Below, one piece after another: positions 1 through 15,515 of a stretch of DNA of 15,515 nt; position 1 is the stretch's first letter, and each line of letters starts with the position of its first letter. The notes beneath the pieces were generated by a model. The model did no database searches. It worked only from the letters and a program-made list of their open reading frames with translations, and had not been told where the DNA came from. This DNA comes from a bacterium (lineage in GTDB: Bacteria > CSSED10-310 > JAJRTK01): positions 1-15,515 of the forward strand of contig JAJRTK010000549.1 in assembly GCA_024278345.1 (NCBI GenBank), written 5' to 3'. The translations under genes and the position numbers were made by a program.

Positions 1-91
1 GGGAGCTGGCTCCCTGGCGTGGGTCTGGGAGCGGCGCTCCCAGCGGAGGTCCGGAGGCGGAGCCTCCGCCGGGTTCCAGGGCTGGAAGCCC
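1..91. repeat. Array of four short perfect hairpins (cut by window edge)
   Basis: Four adjacent inverted repeats are visible: GGGAG/CTCCC at 1-14 (4-nt loop), CTGGGAGC/GCTCCCAG at 25-43 (loop GGC), CGGAGGC/GCCTCCG at 52-68 (loop GGA) and TTCCAG/CTGGAA at 74-87 inside an outer GGG/CCC pair. The first 17 bases match the reverse complement of the hairpin at 13377-13396. The array therefore looks like an inverted relative of the larger array near 13.3 kb. It lies downstream of the leftward two-component operon and could act as a transcript 3' structure; that role is inferred. Confidence 0.8.
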
Positions 92-120
92 CGGGGCGGC
101 GTCTGAAATCTGAACCGTGG

Positions 121-376
121 CCGGTACCATGACCGAGGCCATCCGCCAGGCCCAGGGCGATGAGATCGCGACCGGCGCCCACCGGGTAGTGGAAGATCTT
201 GCCTCTTCCACAATTCACGAAGACGCAGGAGAATGGCAACTTTGGAGATTTTCCCGCCGCGGGCATTGCTTGGAGCGGCTTTCCAGCAGTTTGCCCGTCT
301 GCGTTGCGATGACCCAGCCCTCCACGCCAGCGGCGGACATCAAGAATGTCGAGAGATTAGGGAAAACCTCGCTCAT
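121..376 (-). pseudogene. Possible degenerate Roadblock/LC7-like gene fragment
   Basis: An ATG at 376 lies 9 bases after the response-regulator stop codon and opens a 53-codon frame ending at TGA 215-217. Its start (MSEVFPNLSTF, then AAGVEGWVIATQTGKLLES) resembles the first strands of Roadblock/LC7 proteins, where a hydrophobic strand is followed by a G-K/G-x-L turn. A second frame over about 130-230 reads FVNCGRGKIFHYPVGAGRDL followed by IALGLADG, which resembles the C-terminal half of such a domain. The two parts are in different frames, and the helical middle expected between them (about 45-50 residues) is mostly missing. I read this as a frameshifted, internally deleted third gene of the operon. 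The family resemblance is weak, and the region could instead be a short unrelated ORF. Confidence 0.33.
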
Positions 377-5339: not shown

Positions 5340-5860
5340 GGTTTTCGGTCCTCCGTGGCTGTGTTGAATGGAGCCAGCCGCCCAGCCCACCGCTGCCCTG
5401 GGCTCGTGCCGACGGGCGGGCTCGGCTACCTCCTGGAGCTGCCAGGCTCGGAGCCAAAAAAAGTCCGGCGTGGCTCACCCTACTGGCGTTTCGGTTCCAG
5501 CACAACCGTGGGATGATCTTGCCCGTTCCATTTTCCGATCATGCTCTTCGTCTTGGGCTCAATTTCCGGTAAATCCATTACGTTCTATGTGTTACGTTCC
5601 GCTCCCCGCGGCGGCAATCCGTCCGCCGCTGCTCGCCATTGTTGCCGCTCTCGCTATCCACCCAAGCACCACCCATTTTCCCCCCCCCATAAGATTGTGG
5701 TACCGGTAGAGGCATATTTATTGCCCACTGGAGCTCCCCGTGGTTGCTTCCGTCGGGCTTCGCGGAGTGTCGTTACGCCGTCTGACTGTTCTGTCTCCCC
5801 GGCATTGCCATGACTGGGCTTGGGTCGGCCGCAGCGGCCCGGATCTAGAGGGAAGATCTC
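5340..5860. other. Divergent intergenic region between ilvE and the DsbA-like gene
   Basis: This gene-free stretch separates leftward ilvE from the rightward exported thioredoxin-fold gene, so it should hold both promoters. I see no -35/-10 pair good enough to name. It contains dispersed repeat copy A (5589-5653) and a run of nine C at 5680-5688. No leader-peptide attenuator rich in Leu/Ile/Val codons is apparent before ilvE. Confidence 0.6.
5589..5653 (+). repeat. Dispersed intergenic repeat, copy A
   Basis: The copy reads GTTACGTTCCGCTCCCC, then the hairpin CGGCGGCAATCCGTCCGCCG, then CTGCTCGCCATTGTTGCCG. The hairpin sequence is identical to that in copy E, and the tail matches copies C and D with one or two differences. 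It points towards the DsbA-like gene at 5861. Confidence 0.8.
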
Positions 5861-6937: not shown

Positions 6938-7049
6938 ACGAGGGGGCAGGTGTGAACAGACTGGCGTTTTCCAACCGATGACATGTTTCTGGGAAAGGGC
7001 GAAGACAAGTTTGGGTCGTGGGACACCTACAGGGCAAGATTCCTGAAAA

Positions 7050-7147
7050 CTTCTTTCTTTTCTCCTGGTTGGCTTCCGCTCCCGGCGGCACCGACCCGCG
7101 GCTGCGGCACGAGTTCCCCGCGTCCGCCGCCACTCGCCCCTCATCAC
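7050..7147 (+). repeat. Dispersed intergenic repeat, copy B
   Basis: The copy lies in the 323-bp gap between the DsbA-like gene and the thioesterase gene. I see nothing else there except the thioesterase ribosome-binding site. It has a pyrimidine-rich head (CTTTCTTTTCTCCTGGTTGG), the core TTCCGCTCCCGGCGGCACC and then GACCCG...CACGAGTTCCCCGCG, as in copies C and F. Its hairpin arms are partly mismatched compared with those copies. It points towards the thioesterase. Confidence 0.78.
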
Positions 7148-7260
7148 CCCAGGAGCGGGCTTACTGCCCTAGAAGCGTTTCGCGGTCGAAGTTTGGGACG
7201 CCGCCCTTTTTCTGGGCCTGGGATTCCGCGGCGGGGAAGAGGGAAACAGTGGAGAAGAAG

Positions 7261-10235: not shown

Positions 10236-10734
10236 GATGGTGTCGCCTAGGGCGCCAGCGGGACGCCGCCAACGGTCACAAACCCCTGGCGCTCCGGCGA
10301 GGCTCTTGGACATCCGCTCTGGCACGGCAGGCCAAATCGCGAGCAACTTCCCGGGGGAGAGCCTTCACTCAAGAGGCCTGGGGAGGTTGACCAAGAAAAA
10401 GCCTAACACAGAATTGGCCTGTCGGGAAGATAGCTGCGCTCCGGTTTCGGGTGGTGCTCCGGCCTTCGGGCAATGGATCGAGAGCGGCGACAATGGCGAG
10501 CAGCGGGTGCCGCGGGGAACTCGTGCCAAAGGCACGGGTCGATGCCGATGGGAGCGGAACGTAACGCAAGGAAATTACCGAGATCCGCGCCCTAGGCAAA
10601 GAGCACGATCCAAAACCAGCGCCAAGCCCTGCTTGCCGAGACTCCTCCAAGACCACCCACAACCTCTTCCAACGTATGGCGTTTCATGATGAGTTCAGAG
10701 GAACTGCACCCAAAATCGGTAGAGTCAGAAATAA
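10236..10734. other. Intergenic region with repeat copy C, otherwise no gene seen
   Basis: This 499-bp stretch lies between the Ig-like remnant and the glycosidase tail, both leftward. It may contain further decayed coding sequence next to the remnant, but no recognisable domain can be read in any frame. The only definite structure is dispersed repeat copy C at 10473-10575. No T-tailed terminator for the glycosidase gene is evident. Confidence 0.55.
10473..10575 (-). repeat. Dispersed intergenic repeat, copy C
   Basis: Read on the minus strand, it has TTGCGTTACGTTCCGCTCCC, ATCGGCATCGACC, the hairpin CGTGCC-TTT-GGCACG, AGTTCCCCGCG and then CCGCTGCTCGCCATTGTCG followed by CCGCTCTCG. It is the most complete copy, combining the B/F-type middle with the A/D-type tail. 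It points towards HtrA. Confidence 0.82.
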
Positions 10735-13150: not shown

Positions 13151-13409
13151 AACGAAGGATCACCTGATCATTACGCGTCGGTGGCGCTTGCTCTCCGCGG
13201 GGTATCCAAGCAAAGCGGGACAACGGGTCGCCGGGGAAAAAACTTGGCCTCGGGCAACGCCGCGCTCCGCTCGGCGGGTCACGTTTGCGTGACTCGAAGG
13301 GTCACGCCTCGCGTTACCCGGCGGTTGTCCGGGGACTCTGTCCCCGGTCCCCAGGCAGGGCTTCGCCCTGCACCCACCAGGGAGCCAGCTCCCTGGACGT
13401 ACGTGGATG

Positions 13410-13428
13410 GACGCTGCGCGTCTTTTTT
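13410..13428 (+). terminator. Intrinsic terminator 1 of a tandem pair
   Basis: The stem GACGC/GCGTC has loop TGC and is followed directly by six T. No rightward gene lies upstream in this window, so it may belong to the hairpin-array element or insulate the membrane-protein gene at 13970. Confidence 0.6.
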
Positions 13429-13430
13429 CT

Positions 13431-13450
13431 ACGCTGCGCGTCTTTTTTTT
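13431..13450 (+). terminator. Intrinsic terminator 2 of a tandem pair
   Basis: The stem ACGC/GCGT has loop TGC and is followed by C and eight T. Its first 18 bases are identical to 13411-13428, so the terminator has been duplicated in tandem. Confidence 0.6.
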
Positions 13451-13523
13451 CATTCTTCGGGGTGGTCCGATTGGTCTCCATGAGTGTCAAGTAGATACCC
13501 CAGAAACACGGCGATTTGATAGG

Positions 13524-13969
13524 TTTCGGAGTTTTCAACTTCCTTCCATCATGCTCGGCGTCTCGCTCTGCTCGGCACCGCGTTTTCCCTTTTCTTTTCC
13601 TGCTCTGTGCCGCCTACGCGGATATCCGGATGTTCGGGTCCATGGAGAGGCAGCCCTGCTCGGTGGCACTTCCGGGGCAACCGCCGGAAAAAGCGGCGAC
13701 AATGGCGAGCAGCGGTCGGCCGGATGGCCGCCGATGGGAGCGGACCGCAACACAGAAAAAAGGGTTCCGAGAACAGTCCAAACCAAGAGCAGGATTCCCC
13801 TGGCCTCAAACTTGATTTTCAGCTTGGCGTTCACATTCCCTTTGCGGGATGATAAAAGATCTGATGCCTGGAAGATCCGGGTCCATCACTGGCCGACCGG
13901 TCCGTTGCCGCTTTCCAAGCGGGATTCACCAAAAAGAGGGCCGGCCATGTTCCGTAGGAAGGTGCGACT
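13524..13969. other. Intergenic region before the membrane-protein gene
   Basis: This 446-bp stretch follows the composite element and contains repeat copy D. Open frames cross it on both strands, but they run through repeats and hairpins and show no domain. The ribosome-binding site of the next gene (AGGAAGG, seven bases before 13970) is the only other feature I can support. Confidence 0.6.
13690..13763 (-). repeat. Dispersed intergenic repeat, copy D
   Basis: Read on the minus strand, it has a T-rich head (TTTTTTCTGTGTTGCGG), the core TCCGCTCCCATCGGCGGCC, the hairpin GGCC-ATCC-GGCC and the tail CCGCTGCTCGCCATTGTCG followed by CCGC. The tail is identical to copy C over this stretch. It points towards the glycosidase, although the composite element lies between. 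Confidence 0.8.
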
Positions 13970-15016
13970 ATGCTGAAGTTTGCGAAGACGCCGCGCCATC
14001 GCGTCGAAGTCCGCATTTACGGTCCCCCTTTCATGAGGTTCCTGAGCATTTCCGCCACTGTGCTCATGCTCACCAATTTGGGGTTGGGGCTGGGGCTTCA
14101 CAATACTATCTACTATTTGCTGGCTGGCTCTCTATTGATCGTCGCCGTCGTGGCCAGGGTCGTTTATCGGGGCCACACGATGTACGTGGAAAAGAAGGGC
14201 CGGAGAATTTTTTTCGTTTCCGGCGTCAAGAACGAAGAGCGAAAAAAAATCCAGTGGCCAGAGAAAGAGCTCACCGAGGCCCGCCTCTATTCTCGAGTCG
14301 TGTATGTGGGAAAGGAACCGATCACCAAGTACATCGTCGGGATCACTCGCCGCGCCCTCCGCCCAACGCGCCTGGTGGAGGTGGAATCTCTGGAGGACGC
14401 GGTAAATTTCGCCATTCGCCTGGTTCGCGCCCTTCGTTGCAGTCTGGTGGATGCCCGCGCTTCCAAGCGGGAACGGTACGACTGGTCCGAAATCTCAGCT
14501 CTACGCAGAAAACTCTATGTGACCGAGCGCCAAGAGGGGGAGAGAGTTGCGAGACCGCCCGCCATCAAGCGCCTCCGGAAGTCCGGGGGATACGGCTATG
14601 AGTGGGCGAAAAAAAACAGCGCGCGGGCTGTGCCCTATTTCGTTTTGAGCATCTTGATGTTGCTTGCGCCAATCTACGTCATGCAACAGTCGGTCTACCC
14701 GATTCTTTGGCCGATGCTCCTCTGGCTGCCGTCAGGCGGTTTTGGTTATCTGGCCTTCCGCCAGTGGGCGACATGTTATATTCTGGAGCTCGATGGCGAG
14801 CACCTGAAGTTCCGGATTGAATCGCAGGATGGGAGCCACCGGAAGATCAAGTGGGAGCAGATCCGGGGTCTCCGAAGGGTTGGGAGCAAGCTCAAGGCAA
14901 AGGAGTTAGACGTACGAACCCCCAGGCCGCTGAAAATCAACTGCTGCACTCCGGAGAATCTTGCCTATCTGGAAGAGCAGATCGAGCGTTTCCGAGAGCG
15001 CCATTCGAGTGGATAG
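13970..15016 (+). CDS. Membrane protein with duplicated [2 TM + PH-like] unit
   Basis: I do not recognise this 348-residue protein as a named family. Two hydrophobic hairpins are visible: residues about 22-42 and 46-66 (FLSISATVLMLTNLGLGLGL; YYLLAGSLLIVAVVARVV), and about 221-238 and 243-263 (VPYFVLSILMLLAPIYV; YPILWPMLLWLPSGGFGYLA). Each is followed by a mixed alpha/beta soluble part that looks like a bacterial PH domain: TMYVEKKGRRIFFV, then KKIQWPEKELTEARLY in the first; CYILELDGEHLKFRI, then RKIKWEQIRGLRRV in the second. Each soluble part ends in an amphipathic helix (SLEDAVNFAIRLVRAL; NLAYLEEQIERF). This points to an internal duplication. The start at 13970 has AGGAAGG seven bases upstream. 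A membrane-associated scaffold or sensor is possible; no function can be given. Confidence 0.85.
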   Translation: MLKFAKTPRHRVEVRIYGPPFMRFLSISATVLMLTNLGLGLGLHNTIYYLLAGSLLIVAVVARVVYRGHTMYVEKKGRRIFFVSGVKNEERKKIQWPEKELTEARLYSRVVYVGKEPITKYIVGITRRALRPTRLVEVESLEDAVNFAIRLVRALRCSLVDARASKRERYDWSEISALRRKLYVTERQEGERVARPPAIKRLRKSGGYGYEWAKKNSARAVPYFVLSILMLLAPIYVMQQSVYPILWPMLLWLPSGGFGYLAFRQWATCYILELDGEHLKFRIESQDGSHRKIKWEQIRGLRRVGSKLKAKELDVRTPRPLKINCCTPENLAYLEEQIERFRERHSSG

Positions 15017-15105
15017 AAATTCTTGCGCTGATCTGGCCTTTGGGCTGAGCCATCCCCTCATTTTTTGCTTGGGGGACGCATCCAGGTCAAAGACTCCGAC
15101 AACTG

Positions 15106-15180
15106 CTTTTTTTCTGCTGGTTGGGGTCCGGTCGGGTCGGCGGCAATCCGTCCGCCGCCCCTCCCCTCTCATCGCCCTTC
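15106..15180 (+). repeat. Dispersed intergenic repeat, copy E
   Basis: The T-rich head CTTTTTTTCTGCTGGTTGG is followed by a diverged core (GGTCCGGTCGGGTCGG), and then the hairpin CGGCGGCAATCCGTCCGCCG, identical to copy A. The tail (CCCCTCCCCTCTCATCGCCC) is closer to copy B than to A, C or D. It lies downstream of the membrane-protein gene. Confidence 0.75.
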
Positions 15181-15261
15181 AACCGGTCAACGATCCCCCA
15201 AACCCTCTTTCCGCCTGGAAATGAGAGGATGTTTCAGGCCTTTGGGAGCAAGTTTTACGAA

Positions 15262-15352
15262 AAAAGCGTTCTTTTCTTTGGGTTGTGCTCCGCTCCCGTC
15301 GGCACCGACCCGCGCCTTCGGCGCGAGGGGTATCCACGCAAGGCGGGACAGA
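15262..15352 (+). repeat. Dispersed intergenic repeat, copy F
   Basis: The copy has the head CGTTCTTTTCTTTGGGTTG, the core CTCCGCTCCCGTCGGCACC and then GACC with the hairpin CGCGCC-TTC-GGCGCG at 15311-15325. Instead of the usual tail it runs straight into the left motif of the second composite element at 15327. The hairpin differs from copy C by a T-A to C-G pair change, which keeps pairing. Confidence 0.78.
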
Positions 15353-15510
15353 ACAGAAAAGGGACCTATCAGATCCGGTTGACAACATCACCGCTGGGGC
15401 CGGTCTCCTTCCCGGCTCCGTGTAGCCCGGAGGGCGCTACACCGGCAAGATGCCGGTGCCACCGTTTCGGCGAAGAAAATTATAAAGCAAAAACACGACA
15501 ATTTGATAGG
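15327..15510 (+). repeat. Composite hairpin-array element, copy 2
   Basis: The left motif GGGGTATCCACGCAAGGCGG continues to 15350 and differs from copy 1 at 2 of 24 positions. Two hairpins follow: TGTAGCCC/GGGC..TACA at 15421-15441 (loop GGA) and CACCGGCA/TGCCGGTG at 15440-15458 (loop AGA). The right motif AAACACGACAATTTGATAGG (15491-15510) differs from copy 1 at 2 of 20 positions. An inverted partial copy of the right motif (CCTATCAGATC) lies at 15364-15374. The interior is shorter than in copy 1 and shares no stem sequence with it. No gene is seen from 15017 to the window end. Confidence 0.7.
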
Positions 15511-15515
15511 CCCCA

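Follow-up and report, generated by a model that had tools for sequence, protein, structure and literature searches.

Organisation of the repeats in the window

The window, i.e. the whole 15,515-nucleotide stretch analysed here, corresponds to contig C497 in an assembly of 6.06 Mb and 550 contigs from a bacterium of a sparsely sampled phylum. Two motifs occur twice each in its distal part, all on the plus strand: a 24-bp left motif at 13199-13222 and 15327-15350, and a 20-bp right motif at 13504-13523 and 15491-15510, each pair differing by 2 mismatches. The expected number of such repeats in 200 dinucleotide shuffles was 0.00 for each motif. A preliminary description had reported these motifs, together with an 8-bp inverted repeat (GGGGTATC at 13199 and GATACCCC at 13494-13501) and unrelated stem sequences between the motifs of the two copies, and all of this was confirmed. 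The 8-bp inverted repeat is the outer edge of the terminal inverted repeats (TIRs) of a repeat named here element A, and the stems are unrelated because the interior of the first copy is element A while that of the second copy is a different repeat, element B (Table 1). The ORF between the two sites (13970-15016) had no Pfam match, and scanning the window for Rfam families and tRNAs likewise gave nothing.

Table 1. Positions of the repeats in the window and of element C at other loci
Feature	Position	Strand	Details
Element A, complete but old, ~303 bp	13199..13501	+	Left TIR 13200-13222, hairpin modules, variant (worn) right end ...GTGTCAAGTAGATACCCC
Element B remnant, right TIR only, up to ~26 bp, adjoining A	13504..13523	+	Comparison with complete B copies
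Second, degenerate A right-end fragment	13542..13627	+	Ends TGTGCCGCCTACGCGGATATCC; identity of 83-98% with the A right-end regions of L003, L008, L030 and L047
Left end of a second A copy, interrupted ~34 bp in by the B insertion	15327..15360	+	Exact 23-bp TIR
Element B, complete, 154 bp	15361..15514	+	GGGACCTATCAGATCCGG ... CAATTTGATAGGCCCC; 40 best matches 94-100%, ~154 bp each
GCGGCGACAATGGCGAGCAGCGG ... GATGGGAGCGGAACGCAACAC repeat, at least partly common to six window sites	5530-5687, 7010-7179, 10438-10614, 13670-13795, 15045-15240, 15246-15327
Element C at other loci	L002 1304; L099 1472; L147 5742	minus
Element C at other loci	L012 381; L105 2716; L169 3100; L181 1860 and 1965

The sequence of the complete A copy matches up to 93 other loci, and the repeat coverage from other loci ends exactly at 13501; one locus (L153) matches 13401-13500 continuously with 89% identity. 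In sequence, the interrupted A left end agrees with the A subfamily GGGACAGAACAG. Since the contig stops at 15515, only the first base of the right target duplication of the complete B copy can be read, and it matches the left one. B has inserted into the A end at 15360/15361, and a B end adjoins the A copy at 13199-13501.

Elements A and B have the features of MITEs

Element A is 168-381 bp long with the TIR GGGTATCCACGCAAGGCGGGACA. Its TIRs measure 23-24 bp (GGGGTATCCACGCAAGGCGGGACA), and each end has its own inverted partner. There were 443 A ends in the assembly at no more than 3 mismatches, while a reversed control pattern gave 0, and many of these matches are face-to-face pairs 190-360 bp apart; the left motif is therefore a terminal inverted repeat. 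Target duplications (TSDs) of 8 bp, matching at 7/8 or better, flank 19 of 35 copies, as compared to 0.4% for left flanks paired with the right flanks of other copies; a good TSD is absent in the other 16, which are old, nested or recombined copies. The genome holds about 200 A copies and over 150 B copies, and the A end pattern gave no match in 59 other genomes, including 7 of the same phylum. Of 172 distinct A ends, 54 have the exact TIR and 22 more have one common variant, and these counts suggest that some members of the family are rather young. Element A has no coding capacity, the interior being too short and too variable in length for a conserved transposase gene. In sum of its anatomy, element A is short and without a gene, has TIRs and TSDs, and shares its ends with an autonomous element, the DUF6399 insertion sequences described below, as is expected of a MITE.

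Element B is 152-155 bp long with the TIR GGGACCTATCA; the 154-bp form reads GGGACCTATCAGATCCGG ... CAATTTGATAGGTCCC, and its TIR of about 11-14 bp also has its own inverted partner. B-type end patterns matched 341 times in the assembly, whereas in 7 other genomes of the phylum they matched at chance (control) level only. TSDs of 8 bp were found at 7/8 or better in 40 of 45 copies (0.14% with mismatched flanks). Element B, too, is thus short, without a gene and bounded by TIRs and TSDs. No gene-bearing partner with B ends was found. A candidate parent at contig C377 was rejected, since it proved to be a B remnant; the neighbouring ORF resembles, by eye, an adenylate-cyclase-like gene. At another locus (L181 from 2702, contig C390), a RAYT-like gene (REP-associated tyrosine transposase, by eye) lies directly beside a diverged B copy.

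The preliminary description had read the two sites as a single composite element, its ends conserved and its structured core exchangeable, or as a structured RNA cassette. A single mobile unit with an A-type left and a B-type right end would account for the same order and orientation of the motifs twice in the window, but a B right end follows within 100-400 bp in only 6 of 102 A ends. The ends occur independently, and the motifs come from two families whose separate copies have their own inverted ends and their own TSDs; the composite is refuted, and we give it practically no weight. What did hold of the earlier reading is the small non-autonomous element, since each motif is the TIR of a MITE that makes 8-bp target duplications. 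An alternative is that A and B have been preserved for a function, as structured RNAs or as regulatory or terminator repeats of the REP/ERIC type; it could be argued from the GC-rich hairpins and from the strong foldback of the A single strand (z -7.1). However, it is mainly the TIRs that pair, Rfam gave no match, and the TSDs show transposition. The hairpin interior was compared in 18 A copies that can be aligned end to end and form a collinear family; what varies among them is the set of whole hairpin modules, which have been gained, lost or duplicated. Examples are CCCGTTGCAACGAAGGGCAACGGG and the unit GGGTCACGTTTGCGTGACTCGAA, which can be absent, single, or present two or more times. The covariation term across these 18 copies was -0.01. 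Nothing in the interior of A calls for a selected RNA, and a functional RNA or regulatory repeat is very improbable.

DUF6399 insertion sequences carry A-type ends

At the start of contig C188 lies the 3' portion of a gene whose stop comes shortly ahead of the TIR GGGGTATTCACTTAAGGCGGGACA; most other A-type ends lead into the MITE interior. The encoded partial product belongs to Pfam DUF6399 (PF19936), a 'family of unknown function', with an E value of 1e-46, and other DUF6399 remnants in the same genome bear the same A-type TIR end. In this assembly, which is 87.9% complete, DUF6399 is represented by fragments, one of them at a contig edge, and an intact gene was not found. Therefore, A may be moved by an unassembled DUF6399 copy or may now be inactive.

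DUF6399 is annotated only as a domain of unknown function in cyanobacterial and proteobacterial plasmids. On a plasmid of Candidatus Thiodictyon syntrophicum, the DUF6399 gene lies between inverted repeats with a perfect 8-bp duplication. A scan of a sequence collection yielded 80 DUF6399 loci, and TIRs with an 8-bp duplication were found at more than two dozen of them, mostly spanning 1.74-1.78 kb. In Leptolyngbya sp. PCC 7375 alone, over a dozen almost identical copies occupy different sites. The TIRs of these ~1.75-kb elements resemble GG(G/C)TA(T/C/A)C(A/C)ACTTAAG(C/G)CGGGACA. Just downstream of the gene, an end with at least 16/24 identity to the A TIR was present at 46 of 61 testable loci, as compared to 0 of 48 control windows and 2 of 305 shuffled motifs. 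The closest end, on a groundwater contig (L187), is identical at 22/24 positions, and the hosts with A-like ends include cyanobacteria, Methylococcales and Desulfobacteraceae. In most loci, the insertion sequences (in Leptolyngbya sp. PCC 7375, Desulfobacter latus, Crinalium and others) thus share with A a TIR identical at 16-22 of 24 positions and the same TSD length of 8 bp, while they differ from the gene-less A by their size of ~1.75 kb and their ~530-aa gene. A literature search found no mention of DUF6399, and a search with the TIR string returned unrelated papers only.

Since the A TIR matches the ends of DUF6399 insertion sequences, a DUF6399 transposase is the most likely agent of its movement in trans, and A is best read as a MITE mobilised in this way. 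One may ask whether another resident transposase (ISL3, IS1595 or ISAs1-like) mobilises A instead. ISL3 and IS1595 families make 8-bp duplications, both genes are present in the genome, and their resident copies likewise have GG... ends. Their TIR sequences, however, are neither those of A nor those of B (ISL3 copy, GGCTCTTCGCCATC; IS1595 copies, GGCTCTATATGCGATCC), and the IS256 family was not found in the genome. Searches of the A-bearing genome for ISL3, IS1595, IS256 and DDE_Tnp_1 as the source of A found them absent or with other ends. The A-type TIR is carried by DUF6399 insertion sequences, and mobilisation by one of the other transposases is accordingly very unlikely.

Features of the DUF6399 protein

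Among 22 DUF6399 proteins, which have an N-terminal HTH-like region, D139, D193, D213xxH216 and E449 are invariant. The order D, D, C/DxxH and E is the pattern of Mutator-like DDE enzymes, so that DUF6399 resembles Mutator-like transposases in the order of these residues, with DxxH as the third motif, and in the 8-bp duplications; the invariant residues are putatively catalytic. The IS256_Zn_var HMM gave weak, sub-threshold matches in 5 of the 22 proteins and was the commonest of the sub-threshold matches among NCBIfam models. The predicted order of strands and helices is beta-beta-beta-alpha-beta-alpha. The differences from Mutator-like transposases are a large helical stretch between D2/H and E and the lack of a full-length match to any NCBIfam transposase model. 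Structure searches of the PDB with the full DUF6399 model (pLDDT 77) and a core model (pLDDT 62), which are of moderate or low confidence, returned no convincing RNase H-like match, and a PDB sequence search gave coiled-coil/helical and winged-helix matches only. The prokaryotic Mutator-like transposase families include IS256, ISH6, ISLre2/TnGBS and ISKra4 (Guerillot et al. 2014, PMC3942029). The assignment of DUF6399 proteins as transposases is due to the anatomy of the elements and not to the fold, and a transposase family is a strong lead.

Further repeats and their effect on the assembly

A third repeat, element C (~104 bp, ACCATGAAAGTACATGGTTAAATC ... ATCATGCTCGTT), has a hairpin near its left end and no visible target duplication. 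It occurs in several subfamilies, always at the same position inside an A or DUF6399-type TIR (CCAC(G/T)T^AAGGCGGGACA), and once in tandem in its own end. Element C resembles a parasite that targets a specific site in transposon ends.

The contig start (window 1-147) is a hairpin-rich repeat that matches 49 other loci and has the module CCAGGGAGCCAGCTCCCTGG in common with element A. A further dispersed intergenic repeat with the core GCGGCGACAATGGCGAGCAGCGG ... GATGGGAGCGGAACGCAACAC matches up to ~50 other loci. Elsewhere (L091 1-836, contig C5), an ISL3 transposase gene, with the ISL3 end GGCTCTTCGCCATC, is interrupted by a GC-hairpin repeat, and the gene itself lies inside A-like sequence. 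In a 608-kb sample of stretches from the genome, repeats made up 34% of contig-end bases and 2.1% of those in contig interiors. This enrichment indicates that the assembly is broken at the repeats, and the numbers of copies given above are therefore probably too low.

Discussion

We consider it highly probable that the locus consists of two unrelated MITE families inserted into or beside each other, of which A was moved in trans by a DUF6399 transposase, as its ends make most likely, and B by another transposase. In the proposed mechanism, the N-terminal HTH domain of the DUF6399 protein would bind the A TIR, while cleavage and joining would fall to its Mutator-like D-D-(DxxH)-E core; the same protein would have carried out transposition of A in the present host. 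Element B would work in the same way with a separate transposase.

The kind of element is already known. Bacterial MITEs such as Correia, Chunjie, QMITE and MITEAba12 (reviewed in PMC10969869) resemble A and B in their short length without a gene, TIRs, target duplications, variable interior and dispersed copies. A and B differ from these in their TIRs, high copy number, strong nesting and turnover of hairpin modules, although for copy number ERIC reaches 711 in Photorhabdus (PMC10969869).

A broader proposal, whose chances we regard as evenly balanced, is that DUF6399 constitutes a widespread, so far unnamed Mutator-like insertion-sequence family (TIR ~GGSTAYCAACTTAAGSCGGGACA, 8-bp duplications, ~1.75 kb), with A as its MITE and the 104-bp element C homing specifically into those TIRs. 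The family may already be in ISfinder under another name.

A puzzling composite is thus replaced by two ordinary MITE families, and the A and B repeats help explain the fragmentation of the assembly. A Pfam family of unknown function, DUF6399, is thereby given a testable function, that of a transposase.
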